From: Planctomycetaceae bacterium
GTDB lineage: Bacteria > Planctomycetota > SZUA-567
Length of the DNA stretch: 33,989 nucleotides
Assembly (NCBI GenBank): GCA_021201355.1
Contig: JAJQFC010000088.1
Span: 1 to 33,989 of the forward strand
Direction of reading: 5' to 3'
The stretch's first letter is position 1, and each line of letters opens with the position of its first letter. A program made the position numbers and the translations under genes. A model generated the notes under the pieces. That model was not told the origin of the DNA and made no database searches. It saw only the letters and a program-made list of their open reading frames with translations. This document shows positions 2,065-24,228 of this stretch, one piece after another.

Positions 2065-2841
2065 ATGGCTCTGTCTGGGAAGGTGGCGCTGGTTACCGGG
2101 GCGGCCCGGGGAATCGGCAAGGGGATCGCCCTCGAGCATGCGAAAAGCGGTTGCGACGTGTCAATCGCCGATATCGACGTCGACACGCTCGGCAAGACGG
2201 CGGATGAAATCCGCGCCCTCGGGCGAAAATGCATCCATACGAAATGCGACGTCGCCTCGGTTACGGACGTTGACGCGCTTGTCGCCGAGACGGTACGGGA
2301 ATTCGGCCGGGTCGACATTCTGGCCCACGCCGCCGGGATTTTGCGGTCCTGTTCGGTGGTGGAACAGAATGTGGAGGATTGGGACCGGGTCGTCGCCGTC
2401 AACCTCCGGAGTTCCTTTCTTCTCGGAAAAGCGGTGGGACGCCACATGATCGACCAGAAATACGGAAAAATGGTGTTCATCGACTCCTGCGCGTCAAAGA
2501 CCGGAGAAGCCTTTAACGCCGGCTACTGCGCCGCCACGGCGGGCGTCCGCCACCTCGACCATTCCCTCACCCTGGAACGGGCCGAACACAACATCAACGT
2601 GAACAGTATCGCCCCGGGAACCATCGATACCGAAATGATACAGTCCTGCCTGCGCGACCGCGCACCCCTCTACGGCCTCACCTTCGAAGAATACCTCGAC
2701 CAGTTCAATGAATCGACCCCGCTTAAACGGATGGGTACGCCGGAGGAGGTAGGCAAACTCGCCGTCTTCCTGTCCTCGGACGGTTCGGCCTTCATCACCG
2801 GAACATCCGTGAACATTTCGGGCGGACGAGAATCACACTAA
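2065..2841 (+). CDS. Short-chain dehydrogenase/reductase lacking the catalytic lysine
   Basis: This is a 258-residue classical SDR-fold protein. An N-terminal Rossmann dinucleotide site is visible (TGAARGIGKGIA, from about residue 11), with D36-like acidic residues after beta-2 favouring NAD(H). The structural Asn is N113 and the catalytic Ser is S141, 13 residues before Tyr Y154. The C-terminal NVNSIAPG and substrate loop are normal. The YxxxK motif reads Y-C-A-A-T: the lysine expected at 158 is threonine (ACG), and the NNAG motif reads HAAG. A strong ribosome site (GAAGGAGG) precedes the ATG at 2065. It heads an operon with a ribose-type ABC transporter, so it was probably a sugar or polyol dehydrogenase. 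Without the lysine, oxidoreductase activity is doubtful. Confidence 0.88.
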   Translation: MALSGKVALVTGAARGIGKGIALEHAKSGCDVSIADIDVDTLGKTADEIRALGRKCIHTKCDVASVTDVDALVAETVREFGRVDILAHAAGILRSCSVVEQNVEDWDRVVAVNLRSSFLLGKAVGRHMIDQKYGKMVFIDSCASKTGEAFNAGYCAATAGVRHLDHSLTLERAEHNINVNSIAPGTIDTEMIQSCLRDRAPLYGLTFEEYLDQFNESTPLKRMGTPEEVGKLAVFLSSDGSAFITGTSVNISGGRESH

Positions 2842-3047: not shown

Positions 3048-3998
3048 ATGAAAAAACGCATGAGCATCGCCCTTTGTTTTATGGCCGTCCTCGCCCTGGC
3101 CGGCGCCTCGCCGGCTGGTGAACGCCCGATTCGCATCGGCTTCAGCCTGAAGACGGTGAACAATCCCTTCGTCATCAGCGTCAAAAACGGCGCCGCGCGG
3201 GCCGCCGCCGACCTCGGCGCCGACATCAGCATCACCGATTCGCAGATGAATTCGCAAAAGCAAATGCAGGACGTGGAATCGTTTGTCCAGCAGCGGATGG
3301 ACGTCATCCTCATCGACGCCATGGACTCGCAGGCCATCCTTCCCACCATTGACGACGCGGTCGCGGCCGGGATGAAAATCGTCACCGAAGACGTCCGCAT
3401 CCCCGACGCCGGCGACAAGGTTCTTTCCCACATCGGCATCGACAACCACGCGGCCGGCGCCCAGCTCGCCCGCTGGCTCGAAGCCAAGCTTAAGGCCGCC
3501 GGCAAGCGGAACGTCATCATCATCGCCGGCATCCCCGGGAACGAAGCCACGGACAGCCGCGCCAACGGCTACCGGGAAGTCCTCATGAACAATCCGAACA
3601 TCGACGTCCTCGACATCCGCCTCGCCGGCGACAAGCGGGAGGAAGGCCTGACCGTCATGGACGACATGCTCCAGCGCTTCGCGAAAATCGACGGCGTCAT
3701 CTGCTCGAACGACGAACTGGCCCTCGGCGCCATTTCCGCCATTAACGAAGCCGGCCGGGCCGACGACATCCTCGTCTGCGGCTTTGACGGGAATGTTTAC
3801 GCACTTGAAGCAATCAAGGCGGGCGCCATGGCCGCCACCATCGACCACGCGCCGTACAACATGGGGTACCTCGCCATCGAGACCTGCGTCAAGGCCGCCA
3901 AGGGCGAGCCGGTGGAAAAGCTGACGGTCATGGACGTCGAAATCGTCGACGCGACCAATGTGGACGCCATCATCGCCAAACACGCCGGCGAAAACTAA
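3048..3998 (+). CDS. Ribose-type periplasmic sugar-binding protein
   Basis: This 316-residue protein captures a sugar or polyol in the periplasm for the ABC transporter encoded next to it. A Sec signal peptide (KKRMSIALCFMAVLALAGASPA) spans about residues 1-23. The mature protein begins RPIRIGFSLKTVNNPF, the typical first strand and sugar-contacting loop of the RbsB family. Other family landmarks are VDVILIDAMDSQAI-like and CSNDELALGAISAI segments, and GFDGN near residue 246. There is no lipobox cysteine, so it is soluble and periplasmic. The ATG at 3048 has GGAG upstream; longer in-frame starts would put extra residues ahead of the signal peptide. The substrate cannot be read from sequence. 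Confidence 0.92.
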   Translation: MKKRMSIALCFMAVLALAGASPAGERPIRIGFSLKTVNNPFVISVKNGAARAAADLGADISITDSQMNSQKQMQDVESFVQQRMDVILIDAMDSQAILPTIDDAVAAGMKIVTEDVRIPDAGDKVLSHIGIDNHAAGAQLARWLEAKLKAAGKRNVIIIAGIPGNEATDSRANGYREVLMNNPNIDVLDIRLAGDKREEGLTVMDDMLQRFAKIDGVICSNDELALGAISAINEAGRADDILVCGFDGNVYALEAIKAGAMAATIDHAPYNMGYLAIETCVKAAKGEPVEKLTVMDVEIVDATNVDAIIAKHAGEN

Positions 3999-4072: not shown

Positions 4073-5587
4073 ATGGATCAAAACTCCGACATCATCCTCA
4101 GGATGAAACATATTTCCAAGTCCTATCCCGGCGTCAAGGCCCTGAGTGACGTCAATTTCGACCTCCGGCGCGGCGAAGTCCACGCCCTCCTCGGGGAAAA
4201 CGGGGCGGGAAAGTCCACCTTGATGAAGGTGCTGAGCGGCGTTGTTCAGGCCGACTCGGGCGAGATCATCATCGACGGAAAACCGGTGCACATCACCGAT
4301 GTCAGTGATGCCCGGGAGTGCGGCGTCAGCATTATCCATCAAGAATTGAACCTGATTTCGGAAATGGATGCCGCCCAGAATATCTTTCTCGGCCGCGAGC
4401 CGAAGATATTCGGGAACGTTATTGATTCGAAGCGCATGTACCGGGAAGCGGCCGACATCATGCGCCGCCTCGACTTCTCGATGGACCTGAAAATCCCGGT
4501 GAAAAATTTCAGCGTCGCCACCCGGCAGATGGTCGAAATCGCCAAGGCGCTGTCCCTCGACACCAACATCCTCATCATGGACGAACCGACCGCGCCCCTG
4601 ACGAGCGTGGAAATCAACGAGCTGTTCAAACTCATCCGCACCCTGAAGGAACGGGGCATATCGATAATTTACATCTCCCACCGCCTGGAGGAGATTCCGG
4701 AAATCTGCGACCGCGCCACCGTCCTCCGGGACGGTCACTACATCGGGACGGACGACGTCAAGAACCTCGACCGCGCCACCATCATCCAGATGATGGCGGG
4801 AAGGGTCTTGAAGGAACTGTTTCCGAAAACAGAGGTGCCGATTGGCGAAACGCTCCTCGAAGTCAACAACCTGACGACGCCGCTCCTGCAGGGCGTTTCA
4901 TTTACCGTGCGGCGCGGGGAAATTCTCGCTCTTACCGGCCTCATCGGGGCCGGCCGGACCGAAACGGCCAGGGCCATTTTCGGCATCGACCCGATACAGG
5001 CCGGCACCATCGCCATCGGCGGGAAGGCGGTCTCCATCCGGAGCCCGGCCGAGGCTATCCGCCATGGCATCGGCTTCCTGACTGAGGACCGGAAGGCCCA
5101 GGGATTTGTGCCGGACATGAGCGTGAAGGAAAACATATCGCTCCCGACCCTCAAGTCCATGCAGAAAAGCACCGTCATCAGTTCCCGCCGCGAACGGGCG
5201 GTGGTGGACAGGCACGTAAAGGAACTCAGGATAAAAACGCCGAGCACCGGGCAGAGCGTCCGGTTCCTCAGCGGCGGCAACCAGCAGAAGGTCGTGCTGG
5301 CCAAGTGGCTCAACCTCGACCCGGACATCATCATCCTTGACGAACCGACGCGCGGCATCGACGTCGGGGCCAAGACGGAAATCTACACCATCAAGACGGA
5401 AATCTACACCATCATGGGGGATATCGCCAGGCGGGGAAAGGCGGTCATCATAATCTCTTCCGAAATGGAAGAGGTGATGGCCATATCGGACCGGGCCGTC
5501 GTCCTCTTCGAGGGACGAAAGACGGGAGAGGTGGAACGCCGGGAATATTCGCAGGAATTGTTGATGCACTACGCCATGGGAGGTTGA
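4073..5587 (+). CDS. Ribose-type sugar ABC transporter ATPase (RbsA/MglA family)
   Basis: This is a 504-residue double-domain ATPase that powers sugar import with the neighbouring binding protein and permease. Domain 1 has Walker A GENGAGKST (41-49), a HQELNLI Q-loop, and Walker B with LIMDEPTAPL. Domain 2 has the family's degenerate P-loop (GLIGAGRTE), signature LSGGNQQK and Walker B IIILDEPTRGID, as in RbsA/MglA. Residues 434-440 and 441-447 are an exact repeat of KTEIYTI, caused by a 21-bp tandem duplication just after the GIDVGAK segment of domain 2. The family has only one copy, so this protein is seven residues longer than expected in a helix behind the second ATPase core. The permease gene begins 4 nt after its stop. 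Confidence 0.92.
   Translation: MDQNSDIILRMKHISKSYPGVKALSDVNFDLRRGEVHALLGENGAGKSTLMKVLSGVVQADSGEIIIDGKPVHITDVSDARECGVSIIHQELNLISEMDAAQNIFLGREPKIFGNVIDSKRMYREAADIMRRLDFSMDLKIPVKNFSVATRQMVEIAKALSLDTNILIMDEPTAPLTSVEINELFKLIRTLKERGISIIYISHRLEEIPEICDRATVLRDGHYIGTDDVKNLDRATIIQMMAGRVLKELFPKTEVPIGETLLEVNNLTTPLLQGVSFTVRRGEILALTGLIGAGRTETARAIFGIDPIQAGTIAIGGKAVSIRSPAEAIRHGIGFLTEDRKAQGFVPDMSVKENISLPTLKSMQKSTVISSRRERAVVDRHVKELRIKTPSTGQSVRFLSGGNQQKVVLAKWLNLDPDIIILDEPTRGIDVGAKTEIYTIKTEIYTIMGDIARRGKAVIIISSEMEEVMAISDRAVVLFEGRKTGEVERREYSQELLMHYAMGG
5371..5412 (+). repeat. Perfect 21-bp tandem duplication inside the ATPase gene
   Basis: Bases 5371-5391 are repeated exactly at 5392-5412 and the identity runs two bases further. 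The reading frame is kept and seven residues (KTEIYTI) are added. It looks like a recent slippage event, since the copies have not diverged at any codon. Confidence 0.95.
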
Positions 5588-5591
5588 GCCA

Positions 5592-6575
5592 ATGAAATTC
5601 GCCAAAACGGAAGCGTCCAGCTTCGAAGGAATCAGTTTTTGGAAACGTTTGTTCGCGTAACGGGAATTCGGCGTCTTTTGCGCCCTCGTCATTATGGTCG
5701 TCCTTGTCACGCTGTTCTCGCACAGCGGAACATTCATGACCTGGCCGAACATGATAAACGTGCTCCGCTCGATTTCCACAAACGGCATCATCGCCATCGG
5801 CATGACATTCGTCATCCTGACGGGCGGCATCGACCTGTCGGTCGATTCGACCCTGGCCCTGTCCGGGGCCTTCGCGGCGCTGACTTTCAACAGTACCGGT
5901 TCGTCCGAACTGGCGTTTTGCGTCTGCCTTGCCACCGGCCTCGCCGTCGGGCTCTTTAACGGCGTCATGGTGGCGCACTTCAACGTGCCGCCGTTTATTC
6001 AGACCCTCGTCACCATGACGGCGGCCCGGGGGATCACCTTCATCGTCACGAACGGCACGCCGATCGGGAAGGTCGGCAGCTTCATCACCTTCTTCGGCCG
6101 GGGAACGATACTCGGCTTTCCCGTGCCTATCCTTCTCATGCTGGTGGCGTACGTCATCGGCTGGTTCATTCTCACCCGCACCACCGTCGGCCGCTATACC
6201 TACGCCATCGGCGGAAGCGAAGAGTGCACCAAATTGTCCGGCGTCAGTGTACGGAAGTACAAGACCCTCGTCTACGTCATCGGCGGTTTGACAGCGTCCA
6301 TCGGCAGCCTCATCCTCATCGCCCGCCTGAATTCGGCCCAGCCGTCCATGGGGGACAAATTCGAAATGGACGCAATCGCCGCGGTCGTCATCGGCGGGAC
6401 ATCCCTGGCCGGCGGAACCGGTACAATTGTTGGAACATTCATCGGTACGCTCATACTCGGCGTACTGATGAACGGCATGAATATGCTCGGGGTGGACTCG
6501 TTTGCCCAATATGTGGTGAAGGGTGGGGTCATCCTGTTCGCGGTTCTCCTCGAGTCCCGGAAAAAGGCGCGGTAG
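5592..6575 (+). pseudogene. Ribose-type ABC permease (RbsC family) interrupted by a nonsense codon
   Basis: Reading from the ATG at 5592, four nt after the ATPase stop, gives MKFAKTEASSFEGISFWKRLFA, then TAA at 5658-5660. The same frame continues REFGVFCALVIMVVLVTLFS and on through a normal RbsC-type permease to 6575. FWKRLFA-x-REFGVF is the usual start of this family, and the expected residue at the stop is Gln (CAA), so a single C-to-T change explains it. Restored, the protein would be 327 residues, the normal family length, with about eight to ten membrane segments and the conserved TGGIDLSV and GG(T/A)SLAGGTGT segments. Re-initiation at ATG 5694 would give 293 residues, but no ribosome site precedes it and the cytoplasmic lead into the first membrane helix would be missing. 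Confidence 0.85.
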
Positions 6576-6853: not shown

Positions 6854-7963
6854 TTGGCTAATTTTAAATACGTCCAACTCGCAAACCGTATCCGGGAGGA
6901 GATTTACTCCGGATTACTGGCGCCAGGAAAACGTATTCCGACGGAAGAGCAGCTGTCGGAACGGTTTGCCGTGAGCCGGAATACCGTCCGGCAGGCCTTG
7001 AAAATGCTTGAGGAGGAAGGGTATCTCGCCGGCATACAGGGAAGCGGAACCTTTGTCTCGGCCGAGTTGCCGCGGCCGCCGAGGGCGCTCGAGCCACCCG
7101 CCGAAAAACGCATCGCAGTCGTTATGAACAACTTCGGAAGTTATATCTTCCCAAGCGTCCTTATGGGTATAAGCGACCAACTCTTTGAATCCGGCTATTC
7201 GCTTGTTCTCCGCATCGCCGGAAATCATATCGCGAAAGAGGAACAAATTCTCGTCGATGTTCTTCAGTCAAAAGTGGCCGGGCTCATTATCGAACCGGCC
7301 AGGGCCGCCTGGCCCCGGGCGAATTACGACCTGTACCGGGAAATCGAACGGAACATTCCCTGCGTCCTGACCCACAGCCGGCTGCCCGGCTTCCGGTTTT
7401 CCACCGTCGGCGTCAGCGATGTCGAAGGCGTTGCCCTTCTCGTCGACCACCTGGTGGCGAACGGACACCGGAATATCGCCGCCATCTGCAAGGCGGACGA
7501 GCAAACCGGCATGAACCGCTTCGTCGGATACACCGCAGGGCTCAGGCGGAACAACCTGGTCCTCAGGGAGAAGCATATACTCTGGTACGTGGACGACGAA
7601 AATGAAACCATGTTTACGCCGCAGAATGCCCACCGCGTCTTCGCCGTCCTCGAGGGGTGTACAGCGGTTGTTTGTTTTAACGACCAACTGGTGAACCACT
7701 TCTATCCATTTTTGGAACGAAACAACGTTCGCGTCCCTGAAGACATATCTGTGGTCGGATTTGACGATTCCATCGAACGAGCCGACATTAAACCTCTCAC
7801 CACGGTGGTCCACCCGAAAGAAAAACTTGGCCGGGCCGCCGCCAGGGCGCTCCTCGATCTTATACGCGATCCCGAAGCAGACGCATCCATGCAGTTTCCG
7901 CCCGAACTTGTTTTCCGGGAAACCGTTAAGAACCTTAAACTTCCCTGTGCGGCTGAAATGTAA
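6854..7963 (+). CDS. GntR/LacI fusion regulator (AraR type)
   Basis: This 369-residue regulator joins an N-terminal GntR winged helix to a C-terminal LacI-type sugar sensor, the AraR architecture. Residues 1-75 hold the winged helix (FKYVQLANRIREEIYSG, SERFAVSRNTVRQALKMLEEEGYL, GSGTFV). From about residue 90 comes the periplasmic-binding-like domain (KRIAVVMNN, GLIIEPA, VANGHRNIAAI, PEDISVVGFDDS). The start is a TTG at 6854 with GGAG seven nt upstream; there is no ATG in this frame near the start of the domain. It is closely related to the protein at 15726-16817, which also starts with TTG. It lies just after the first ABC operon and before the IolG operon, and may control either. Confidence 0.9.
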   Translation: MANFKYVQLANRIREEIYSGLLAPGKRIPTEEQLSERFAVSRNTVRQALKMLEEEGYLAGIQGSGTFVSAELPRPPRALEPPAEKRIAVVMNNFGSYIFPSVLMGISDQLFESGYSLVLRIAGNHIAKEEQILVDVLQSKVAGLIIEPARAAWPRANYDLYREIERNIPCVLTHSRLPGFRFSTVGVSDVEGVALLVDHLVANGHRNIAAICKADEQTGMNRFVGYTAGLRRNNLVLREKHILWYVDDENETMFTPQNAHRVFAVLEGCTAVVCFNDQLVNHFYPFLERNNVRVPEDISVVGFDDSIERADIKPLTTVVHPKEKLGRAAARALLDLIRDPEADASMQFPPELVFRETVKNLKLPCAAEM

Positions 7964-8406: not shown

Positions 8407-9420
8407 ATGACGAAAAAGCTTTCCGTTGGCATCATCGGCGCCGGGCGCATTGCCTCCGTGCACGTTCAGAGCCTCGCCGCCATCCCCGAAGTCCACATCG
8501 CCGCCATTGCCGATATTGTCCTCCCTTCCGCCCAAGCCTACGCCGATCAATTCGGCATCGCCAAGGTCTATGACGACTACCGGAAAATCATCGACGATCC
8601 GGCCATCGACGCCGTCTATATCATTTCCTCCACCGATACCCACACGGAAATCATGACAGCGGCGGCGCAGGCGAAAAAGCATATCTTCTGCGAAAAACCC
8701 ATCGCCCTCGATCTGAAAGAAATCGATACGGTCCTGGACGTTGTCAAAAAGAGCGGCGTTACCCTCATGGTCGGCTTCAACCGGCGCTACGACGCCGGCA
8801 ACATGGAGCTCCGCAAGGCAGTGATGGACGGCAGTATCGGCACGCCGGAAATGTGCATCATCAACAGCCGCGATCCGGCGCCGCCGCCCATGGAATACGT
8901 CAAGGTCTCCGGCGGCATCTTCCTCGACATGATGATCCACGACTTCGACCTGGCCCGTTACCTTCTGGACGACGAGCCGGAAGAAATTTTCGCCCAGGGC
9001 GCCTGCCTCATTGAACCGGAAATCGGCAAGTTCGGCGATTATGACACCGCCATGGTGACTATCCGCTTCAAAAAAGGCGCGCTCTGCCACATCGACAACA
9101 GCCGCCGCGCCGTTTACGGCTACGACCAGCGCGCCGAAGTCTTTGGCGAAAAAGGCAAGGTCTATACCGCCAATATCCACGAGAACAACGCGGTCAAGGT
9201 CTCCGTCGGCGGGTACAGCCAGCCGCCCATCCAGAACTTTTTCCTCGAACGCTATCTCGACGCCTACCGGCGGGAGGCGAAGTGGTTCGTCGACTGCGTC
9301 ACAAAGGGCGAAAAACCGCTGGCGGGCGGGCTCGACGGCAAGGTATCCGTCTGCATGGGCTATGCCGCCATCAAGTCGGCCAAGGAACATCGTCCGGTTC
9401 TCCTGAGTGAAATTTGCTAG
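8407..9420 (+). CDS. iolG: Inositol 2-dehydrogenase-like Gfo/Idh/MocA oxidoreductase
   Basis: This 337-residue NAD-dependent dehydrogenase probably oxidises a ring hydroxyl of an inositol or pyranose to a ketone. The N-terminal Rossmann domain has GAGRIA (11-16). The EKP motif gives K97. The catalytic pair of the IolG branch is visible as D174 and H178 in GGIFLDMMIHDFD, matching the spacing in Bacillus IolG. The C-terminal part is a normal beta-sheet domain. It opens an operon with a second Gfo/Idh/MocA enzyme, a TIM-barrel epimerase and a ribose-type ABC importer, so it likely acts on the imported compound. myo-Inositol is the best-known substrate of such proteins, but a glucoside or hexose 3-dehydrogenase role is equally compatible with the neighbours. 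Confidence 0.82.
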   Translation: MTKKLSVGIIGAGRIASVHVQSLAAIPEVHIAAIADIVLPSAQAYADQFGIAKVYDDYRKIIDDPAIDAVYIISSTDTHTEIMTAAAQAKKHIFCEKPIALDLKEIDTVLDVVKKSGVTLMVGFNRRYDAGNMELRKAVMDGSIGTPEMCIINSRDPAPPPMEYVKVSGGIFLDMMIHDFDLARYLLDDEPEEIFAQGACLIEPEIGKFGDYDTAMVTIRFKKGALCHIDNSRRAVYGYDQRAEVFGEKGKVYTANIHENNAVKVSVGGYSQPPIQNFFLERYLDAYRREAKWFVDCVTKGEKPLAGGLDGKVSVCMGYAAIKSAKEHRPVLLSEIC

Positions 9421-10788: not shown

Positions 10789-11613
10789 ATGAGCGGGTTT
10801 AAATTGGGAATTTGTGAATGGGCCTTTCCCCTGCCCGGCCCGGCCGGTTTAAAAATCGCCGCCGAACTCGGGTTGCAGGGAATGGAACTGGATTTCGGCG
10901 ATTACGAGAAAGGCTTTCCCCTTTCCAACTCCCGTATCCAGGACCACTACCTCGAATGCGGCGCCAAGCACAACATTGAATTTCCTTCCATCGCCTTCAA
11001 TGCCCTGTGCGCCCACGGCCTGTCGAAGCCGATGGAAAGCGTGGACGGCATGATCGCCATGGAATGCCTGAAGAAAGGCATCGTGGCGGCGGCGGCCATG
11101 AAGATCCCCGTCGTCCAGCTGCCGAGTTTTGAAAACGGCGCGATCAACTCCGAAGCCGAATTCCGGAATACCTGCGAAAAACTCCGGTTCGCCTGCCGGC
11201 TCGCCGGCGAACACGGGCTGATCGTCTCGTCTGAAAACAACCTGTCTCCGGAAGAGACGGACCGCATGGTCGCCGAAGTGGCGGCCGACAACTTCCGCAT
11301 TTTCTTCGACACGCAGAACTACCTTTTGAATCGCGGCTATTCCCAGCCCGATGTTCTCCGCCGCATTCACCGTCACATTGTCCAACTGCACATCAAGGAC
11401 GGCTACAACGGCCATCTCAGTTCCTCCCTTCTCGGGCAGGGCGACGCGCTGTTCGCCGAATCGGCACAGATCATCAACGACGTACACCCTTGCGAATGGC
11501 TGATTCTCGAGAATTACTACAATGTCAAGCCGCTCAGTGAACTTCATCCCGATCCCTTTGAACTTCTCGCGCGCGATATCGCCATCGCCAACTCATTCTT
11601 CTCCTTTAAATAA
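10789..11613 (+). CDS. TIM-barrel sugar isomerase/epimerase
   Basis: This 274-residue protein of the xylose-isomerase-like TIM-barrel superfamily (AP endonuclease 2 fold) is a metal-dependent isomerase or epimerase acting on keto sugars. The four metal ligands are visible at the expected strands: E149 (SSENN), D174 (FFDTQN), H201 (QLHIKDG) and E241 (ILENYY). The LLGQGD motif (214-219) is typical of IolE and YcjR-like enzymes. A strong ribosome site (AAGGAG) precedes the ATG, 36 nt after the second dehydrogenase. By analogy with the E. coli ycj cluster, where YcjR epimerises a 3-keto-glycoside, it could act on the ketone made by its neighbours. Keto-inositol processing is the alternative. Confidence 0.82.
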   Translation: MSGFKLGICEWAFPLPGPAGLKIAAELGLQGMELDFGDYEKGFPLSNSRIQDHYLECGAKHNIEFPSIAFNALCAHGLSKPMESVDGMIAMECLKKGIVAAAAMKIPVVQLPSFENGAINSEAEFRNTCEKLRFACRLAGEHGLIVSSENNLSPEETDRMVAEVAADNFRIFFDTQNYLLNRGYSQPDVLRRIHRHIVQLHIKDGYNGHLSSSLLGQGDALFAESAQIINDVHPCEWLILENYYNVKPLSELHPDPFELLARDIAIANSFFSFK

Positions 11614-15725: not shown

Positions 15726-16817
15726 TTACGACCTGAGGTTCTTGACCGTGTCCCGGAAAATAAGCTTTGGCGGGAACCGCATGGAGACGTCGGCCTCAGG
15801 GTTGGCTATGAGCGCCAGGAGCGCCTCCACCGCCTTTTTGCCGAGTATGGATTTCGGGTTTTCGATGGTGGTAAGCGGTTTCATGTCGTGCCGGTTGAAG
15901 GAATCGTCAAAGCCGGCAATGCTGATATCATCGGGAATGCGCCGGTTGTGGCGTTCGAGGAACGGATAGAGCCGGCTGACCACCTCGTCGTTGTGGCAAA
16001 ATACCGCCGTGCACCCATCCAGCGCCGAAAAGACGCGGTGGGCATTCTGGTCGGTGAACAGGCTGTCGAAGTCTTCGTCCATGAACCAGAGAACGGCGTT
16101 TTCGTCCATGGCCAGATTATTCCGGGCCAGTCCGACGCCGTAGCCCTTGAACCGTCCGGTGCCGGTCTGTTCGTCCGACTTGAAGATGCCGGCGATGCGT
16201 TTGTGGCCGTTGGCGACGAAGTGGTCGATCACCAGGGCGACGCCGTCGACATCGCTGACGCCTATTGTCGGGAATCTGAAACCGGGCAGAACGGCGTGGG
16301 TGAGAATGCAGGGCATTCTCTCTTCTATCCGCCTGTAGAGGTCCTCGTTCAGGAGGGGCCAGGCGGACCGCGTCGGTTCGATAATTAGGCCGGCGAGATT
16401 GGTCGACAGGAGTTCCGTGAGGATCTGCCGCTCTTTCGCTATCCGGTTCGAGGTAATCCGGTACACCATGGTGTATTCGTGCTCGAACAAACTTTCACTG
16501 ATTCCCATCAGCACTTCCGGATAGATATAAGCTGTGCAGCGGGGAAGGACGACGCCGATACTTTTACTGGCGGCCGGAACGGACGGGCGGGGTGCCTGAA
16601 CGGCCCGCTCCGCCACGTATGTGCCGCTGCCCTGAACCTTGACGAGAAAGCCCTCCTCGACCAAAAGGCCTATCGCCTGGCGTACGGTATTGCGGCTGAT
16701 GGAATAGCGGATGGCCAACTCTTCCTCGGCGGGGATCTGCTGTCCCGGGGCGCGGACGCCCAGTTCGATTTCGCTCTTCAGGCGGTCCGCCAGCAATGAG
16801 CATTTAAATCGAGGCAA
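15726..16817 (-). CDS. GntR/LacI fusion regulator (AraR type), paralogue of the one at 6854
   Basis: This 363-residue regulator has a GntR winged helix (FKCSLLADRLKSEIELG, ISRNTVRQAIGLLVEEGFL, GSGTYV) followed by a LacI-type sensor (SIGVVLPRCTAYIYPEV, GLIIEPTRSAWP, VANGHKRIAGI, PDDISIAGFDDS). Long stretches match the protein at 6854-7963, for example PC-LTH, GVSDVxGVAL and KxDEQTG. The start is TTG at 16817-16815 with AAGGA seven nt upstream, mirroring the TTG start of the paralogue; farther in-frame starts would precede the winged helix with unrelated residues. It is convergent with the second ABC operon and has its own promoter (16894-16866), so it is the likely regulator of that operon. 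Confidence 0.9.
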   Translation of the reverse strand: MPRFKCSLLADRLKSEIELGVRAPGQQIPAEEELAIRYSISRNTVRQAIGLLVEEGFLVKVQGSGTYVAERAVQAPRPSVPAASKSIGVVLPRCTAYIYPEVLMGISESLFEHEYTMVYRITSNRIAKERQILTELLSTNLAGLIIEPTRSAWPLLNEDLYRRIEERMPCILTHAVLPGFRFPTIGVSDVDGVALVIDHFVANGHKRIAGIFKSDEQTGTGRFKGYGVGLARNNLAMDENAVLWFMDEDFDSLFTDQNAHRVFSALDGCTAVFCHNDEVVSRLYPFLERHNRRIPDDISIAGFDDSFNRHDMKPLTTIENPKSILGKKAVEALLALIANPEADVSMRFPPKLIFRDTVKNLRS

Positions 16818-16865
16818 GAGATTTTCCTTGAGGTGATTTGGAACATTTCTACTTCCACTTCTATA

Positions 16866-16894
16866 AGTATATAACGTAATAATAAGGTTGTCTA
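16866..16894 (-). promoter_or_regulatory. Promoter of the second fused GntR-LacI regulator
   Basis: On the minus strand TAGACA (16894-16889, 5 of 6) and TATACT (16871-16866, 5 of 6) are separated by exactly 17 bp in an A+T-rich stretch, about 50 nt before the TTG start. It lies downstream of the uxaA terminator, so the regulator is transcribed separately. Confidence 0.65.
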
Positions 16895-16956
16895 GTGTGA
16901 GTATTAAAAAAATAGTACAACTTTTTCCGCGGGACTCTTTTCGCTCCCGACAGAAG

Positions 16957-16988
16957 AAAAAACCCTCCGGCCCGATGGCCGAAGGGTT
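16957..16988 (-). terminator. Intrinsic terminator of the TRAP-uxa operon
   Basis: On the minus strand AACCCTTCGGCC (16988-16977) pairs with GGCCGGAGGGTT (16972-16961), one T-G wobble, with a 4-nt loop. TTTTTT follows (to 16957). It lies about 120 nt after the uxaA stop. Confidence 0.9.
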
Positions 16989-17105
16989 ATTTGCAGTTTT
17001 GACTGTATTCAGGGCGAAGACGCCATGCAACAACGCGAATTACCACCACCTCTGTTTCAGCGTTCACTACTGTTCTCCGTCCTGTCCATATTTCCCATCG
17101 GCATC

Positions 17106-23173: not shown

Positions 23174-24163
23174 CTATTCGGCAATGATTTTCTTGATGGT
23201 TTCATACAGGCCCGGGGTCCAGTAGGAAAATTCGGGATAACTGTAGAAAGCTTCAACGGCAGCCTTGTAGTCTTCGTAGTTGATGGGAGTGACGGTGACG
23301 CCATCCGCTTTCATTTTTTCCAGAATTTCCTCTTCGAACTCGACCAGAATCCTGTTCTGGTATTCCCCGGCCTCCCTGGCGGTCCTGACGAGAATGTCCT
23401 GCTGTTCGGCGGTCAGCGTATCCCAGAAGGCGGTGCCGCAGACGAAAATATTGATGGTCTTCATGTGGGCGTCTAAAAGGAGGTTTTTCGCGACTTCGTG
23501 GTACTTGCCGCCCCAGATGGTTCCAAGAGGATTTTCAAGGCCGTCGATAACGCCCTGTTAGAGGGATGTATAAACTTCGCCCAGGGCGAGAGGCGTGGCC
23601 GAAGCCCCGATGGCCTCGAAAGCCTTGACGAAAATCATGCTTTGGGGAACGCGAATCTTTAGACCGGCCATGTCCTTCGGCGACATCACCGGCTTGACGG
23701 TCAGAGTGTGGCGGTCGCCGTAGCGCCAGTTGGAAGCGATGACCTTGAAGCCTTTTTCTTCAAGGAGTTTTTCCTGCCCTTTCCACCAGTCGCTGGCGAA
23801 CAACTTTTCCATCTGCTCCCAGGTCTCGCAGAGGTACGGCGCCTGCAGGATGCCGATATCCGGGACGCCCAAGTCGGCGAACATGGCGGTGTCGGTGGAG
23901 TGGACGACCGGATCGCCCATCCATGCCTGCTCAATCTGGTCTTTGCCGGATCCAAGCTGGTCGTTCGGGAACAGGTTCAGCCTGATGGTGCCGTTACTTT
24001 GTTCCTCGACGAGCTTGGCCCAGTAGACATGGCCCCGACCGTACGGCACATCGATGGTCGGTCCGAACCCGACGTTGACCTCCACGACCGGTTGGCCGGC
24101 GCGGGCCGGGACATTCAGCGCGCATAGCGCCAGGAGAGCGCACACCGCAAACATCTTCTTCAT
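23174..24163 (-). pseudogene. TRAP transporter substrate-binding protein (DctP family) with an in-frame stop
   Basis: From the ATG at 24163 the frame gives a Sec signal peptide (about 1-22, ending ARA) and a DctP-type binding protein (HVYWAKLVEEQSNGTIRLNLFPNDQLG, KIRVPQS with the substrate-binding Arg, ALGEVYTSL). TAA at 23560-23558 stops it at codon 202. The same frame then reads QGVIDGLENPLGTIW and continues to a normal end at 23174. The family motif is EVYTSLQQGVIDGxENP, so the stop replaces a Gln (CAA to TAA, one C-to-T change on the coding strand). Restored length would be 329 residues, normal for DctP. The truncated product lacks the second lobe half and would not bind ligand. No ribosome site is seen for restarting downstream. 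Confidence 0.88.
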
Positions 24164-24228
24164 AACCTTCCTCCATTTTTTCCGAATGGAACAGTAATCG
24201 GACGGTCAGGAAACCGCCGAATGAAATT

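Follow-up and report, generated by a model that had tools for sequence, protein, structure and literature searches.

In SDR enzymes, the catalytic lysine lowers the pKa of the catalytic tyrosine and holds the nicotinamide ribose. Replacement of this lysine by alanine abolishes or weakens NADPH binding in two SDRs (PMC7320009, PMC7973133). In BPSS2242, the equivalent K166A variant is inactive, with disrupted NADPH binding and an altered conformation (PMC7320009). E. coli FabG K155A, on the other hand, keeps about 50% of its kcat/KM, and loss of the lysine thus need not kill an SDR; the K155A, K155R, K155I, and K155E variants are active in vivo, and K155A is also active in vitro (PMC7973133). 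The FabG mutants show no activity with acetoacetyl-CoA, which makes this tolerance substrate-dependent (PMC7973133).

Other proteins carry the SDR fold without the canonical lysine. These include (i) SimC7, which has IxxxH and for which a structure-backed mechanism has been proposed (PMC5039031), (ii) an SDR of Mucilaginibacter (loci L067 and L076) that reads YAAAN in place of YxxxK and, being conserved between two species, represents a natural Lys-less lineage, and (iii) an SDR (loci L059 and L065) that reads SNTAR, lacks both the tyrosine and the lysine, and is conserved between two MAGs. The protein described here likewise lacks the lysine, but it retains the tyrosine and is a singleton, unlike cases (ii) and (iii), in which the substitution is conserved between species.

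The gene lies in a stretch of 33,989 nucleotides, referred to here as the window, which is contig JAJQFC010000088.1 of the Planctomycetaceae bacterium assembly GCA_021201355.1. Its relevant features are as follows:

2065..2841, + strand: classical SDR-type oxidoreductase gene, as assigned with Pfam (258 aa; ATG at 2065, ends with TAA at 2841; GGAGG site upstream)
2326..2337, + strand: HAAG (residues 88–91) where NNAG is usual; a clade feature, present in both orthologues
2524..2526, + strand: codon TAC, the retained catalytic Tyr154
2536..2538, + strand: codon ACG, Thr158 replacing the catalytic Lys (YxxxK to YxxxT)

On sequence and predicted fold, the protein is assigned to the SDR family, while as a working classical SDR it is only a candidate. 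It scores 189.3–189.8 bits against PF13561 (adh_short_C2; cut-off 27) and 175 bits against PF00106, both in Pfam; no NCBIfam equivalog reaches its own cut-off with this protein. The TGxxxGxG cofactor motif is present as TGAARGIG at residues 11–18, and T11, G12, G16, and G18 are invariant among 32 aligned relatives. AlphaFold2 predicts a Rossmann SDR fold with a pLDDT of 94.5, and Foldseek matches the model to FabG (4jro) with an E value of 6e-27. Classical SDRs of the FabG, 3-hydroxybutyrate dehydrogenase, and sorbitol dehydrogenase type (PF13561; PDB 4jro, 2uvd, and 1wmb) share this fold at TM-scores of 0.87–0.91, as well as TGxxxGIG, N113, S141, and Y154. The window SDR is 34–37% identical to them and differs in the absence of Lys158.

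Three residues of the usual SDR tetrad, N113, S141, and Y154, are therefore present, and the fourth, the lysine, is T158. The sequence-only reading that first drew attention to this gene had placed Y154-C-A-A-T158 where YxxxK is expected, and its codons and register agree with ours: positions 2524–2538 read TAC TGC GCC GCC ACG, S141 lies 13 residues upstream, and NVNSIAPG follows the motif, which leaves the register unambiguous. Column 158 is Lys in at least 90% of the 32 aligned relatives. In a wider set of 120 SDR stretches, more distantly related, Lys occupies the site in 116, Asn in two, Arg in two, and Thr in none, and the Asn and Arg cases differ from T158 in belonging to lineages whose species share the unusual residue. 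A literature search for Lys-to-Thr cases in SDRs found none.

Orthologues were sought in 29 genomes of the class and in 174 relatives' contigs, and none was found there beyond two, both from Planctomycetaceae MAGs of the same genus: G007:C73, JAJQBO010000157.1 (L011, L092), and G008:C93, JAJPXZ010000059.1 (L012, L091). Their SDRs are 76–77% identical to the window SDR over 258 aa. Both read YCASK with the Lys codon AAG, one base away from the ACG of the window, just as the earlier reading had supposed. The alignment of nearest homologues that it had called for thus returned Lys in both orthologues and Thr in no homologue found, and T158 is private to this genome. Its remark that HAAG departs from NNAG is correct as to the motif and fails as an argument for lost function: both Lys-bearing orthologues also have HAAG, so HAAG was rejected as a sign of functional loss. 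The C-terminal SGGRESH, too, is common to all three proteins.

The earlier suggestion of a transporter operon is right; genes resembling RbsB, RbsA, and RbsC follow the SDR:

3051..3998, + strand: RbsB-like sugar-binding protein, intact
4073..5587, + strand: RbsA-like ATPase of a sugar ABC transporter; its second nucleotide-binding domain has seven inserted residues
5372..5413, + strand: exact 21-bp tandem duplication in the ATPase gene (AAGACGGAAATCTACACCATC, twice), absent in both orthologues
5592..6575, + strand: RbsC-like permease frame, interrupted by a stop
5658..5660, + strand: in-frame TAA at permease codon 23; CAG (Gln) in both orthologues
6863..7963, + strand: regulator with a GntR-type DNA-binding and a LacI-type sensor domain (AraR-like layout)
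8407..9420, + strand: inositol 2-dehydrogenase-like Gfo/Idh/MocA protein (TIGR04380, 428 bits, cut-off 355), not syntenic in the orthologous loci
10789..11613, + strand: TIM-barrel sugar-phosphate isomerase/epimerase-like protein; a homologue lies directly after the permease in both relatives

The order SDR, RbsB-like, RbsA-like, RbsC-like is identical in the window and in both orthologous loci. A second AraR-like regulator of the GntR-type plus LacI-type layout, at 15726–17033 on the minus strand, is an apparent paralogue of the one at 6863–7963 (+) in opposite orientation. The orthologous loci have no IolG-like gene, and the one at 8407–9420 lies downstream only in the window locus. It could make the SDR dispensable, but this is a guess, because the sister genomes also carry IolG-like genes, at other places.

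In the assembled sequence, four consecutive genes hold three apparent faults, namely K158T, the permease TAA, and the ATPase duplication. None occurs in the two orthologous loci, where the SDR reads YCASK, the permease is uninterrupted, and the ATPase has no duplication. The duplication adds seven residues (KTEIYTI) just beyond the segment with Walker B and the D-loop (LDEPTRGIDVGAK). Restart of the permease at ATG 5694 would yield a 293-aa form that has lost its N-terminus and, with it, most of what is likely the first membrane segment. The operon shows no frameshift.

The best explanation, to which we assign a probability of about 0.58, is that a small sugar/polyol uptake-and-oxidation operon is in recent decay in this genome, with its SDR impaired or dead, while sister species keep the operon intact. 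A classical SDR would have served an operon made up of itself, the RbsB-, RbsA-, and RbsC-like transporter, and then a regulator and an epimerase. Selection on this operon would have been lost recently in the lineage of this genome, and under that loss Lys158 would have become Thr, the ATPase gene would have gained its 21-bp duplication, and the permease gene its stop codon. The fold and the Ser-Tyr pair would be retained; without the lysine, the pKa of the tyrosine would not be lowered and the nicotinamide ribose would be held less well. Such a protein would hence be expected to have little activity or none. Decay is supported by the combination of a private T158, a permease stop in the same operon, and the ATPase duplication; we infer that the organism itself carries these lesions and that they share relaxed selection as one cause. 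The high pLDDT counts against it, but such models seldom register point defects. The dead enzyme proposed by the sequence-only reading is accordingly plausible and gains from the permease nonsense codon and the ATPase duplication, and death of the SDR is likely, as the loss of activity in BPSS2242 K166A (PMC7320009) suggests, though the residual activity possible after lysine loss, as in FabG K155A, makes it less than certain.

The same three differences could instead be metagenome assembly faults, through consensus error or a mixture of strains, with a normal operon in the organism. The genome is in 372 contigs and 83% complete, metagenome contigs of the relatives have coverages of only 7.6 and 9.6, the T158 codon is a single base from that of the orthologues, and an exact tandem duplication can arise as an assembly fault. 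Against such an origin, the operon is free of frameshifts, and the private F25H change in the SDR and the permease TAA (vs CAG) would each take at least two base substitutions. Moreover, of about 200 sampled domain matches in this genome (SDR 18, PF02653 47, PF00005 114, PF01408 14, and DctP 7 matches), just 5 (~2.5%) are interrupted by an in-frame stop, which argues that the assembly is not generally error-ridden. Assembly error is an unlikely account, if the strongest of the competitors.

Scattered interrupted genes are present in this genome and are not rampant, and at this frequency they indicate that decay of single genes does occur in it. One is the substrate-binding protein DctP of a TRAP operon at 23174–24205 on the minus strand, with a TAA at 23558–23560 within LGEVYTSL*QGVIDG (asterisk, stop). 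Another is a second SDR (L115; G000:C248:20753-21448), whose frame is broken by a TAA (DVTDE*SVDAAF) and whose catalytic motif, YNASK, is normal. The stops in the permease, DctP, and this other SDR fall at likely Gln positions, and a reading of TAA as Gln was considered and rejected. TAA terminates the window SDR immediately behind its conserved RESH end, and this genome has genes interrupted by TAG and by TGA as well, so that no reassigned code is implied.

Pairwise dN/dS between the SDR and its orthologues is 0.12, an estimate from three sequences only with dS near saturation at about 1.5, and as such it speaks neither for nor against a recent relaxation; the transporter and regulator neighbours give similar values (0.10–0.15). 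The intact frame and the low, neighbour-like dN/dS count against decay, in that the SDR can have begun to decay only recently, if at all. In favour of decay, against PF13561, the SDR scores 22–25 bits below its orthologues (189.3 vs 214.1 and 211), whereas the permease shows no comparable drop (149.3 vs 150.9 and 145.8). A profile built from 120 relatives registers no net loss for the SDR (401 vs 392 and 393), which weighs against decay; the three worst positions on it are F25H, L172R, and K158T, and the first two, which favour decay, are private changes at sites where relatives almost always have a hydrophobic residue. V153G, L163H, and A165D were considered as a cluster of damage near the motif and mostly rejected: many family members have H163, and the profile score rises there. 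Together, the scores and dN/dS fit a gene that would have been long constrained and has acquired a few recent unfavourable changes.

The strong overall constraint on the gene is also what would be expected if the SDR were still active, with Thr158 and a water network, or the substrate, taking over the role of the lysine. The activity of the FabG K155 mutants (PMC7973133) and the interspecies conservation of Asn and Arg at this site in the YAAAN and SNTAR lineages point the same way. T158 occurs in a single genome beside an interrupted transporter, BPSS2242 K166A is inactive (PMC7320009), and the failure of the FabG mutants on acetoacetyl-CoA ties their tolerance to the substrate (PMC7973133). 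Retained activity is rated as unlikely too, slightly behind assembly error. Its more specific form, a newly evolved active-site variant that keeps the tyrosine, uses Thr for Lys, and relies on a compensating substrate or water network, is improbable.

The least likely outcome, and a very improbable one, is that the SDR has become a sensor that binds NAD(H), or a binding protein, acting with the transporter operon; a sensor or binding protein had also been offered by the earlier reading. The fold and the glycine-rich TGAARGIG are intact, and regulators with an SDR fold exist, although the example at hand, MAT2B, keeps its triad (PMC3793261). No relative found has T158, and both orthologues have Lys; dedicated regulators already flank the operon, and the permease to be served is interrupted. 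Cofactor binding is precisely what suffers from loss of the lysine in the two tested SDRs (PMC7320009, PMC7973133), which leaves a cofactor-binding sensor as the poorest fit, and this part of the earlier proposal lacks support.

Nothing in the window SDR or its operon departs from known kinds. If the decay is true, it is the ordinary loss of a catabolic operon in one species whose sisters retain it. The locus would then serve as a modest natural experiment on whether an SDR can do without its lysine, which FabG K155A has made a live question again. A further lesson is that neighbouring genes should be checked before one private change in an active site, seen in a metagenome assembly, is taken for a new function.
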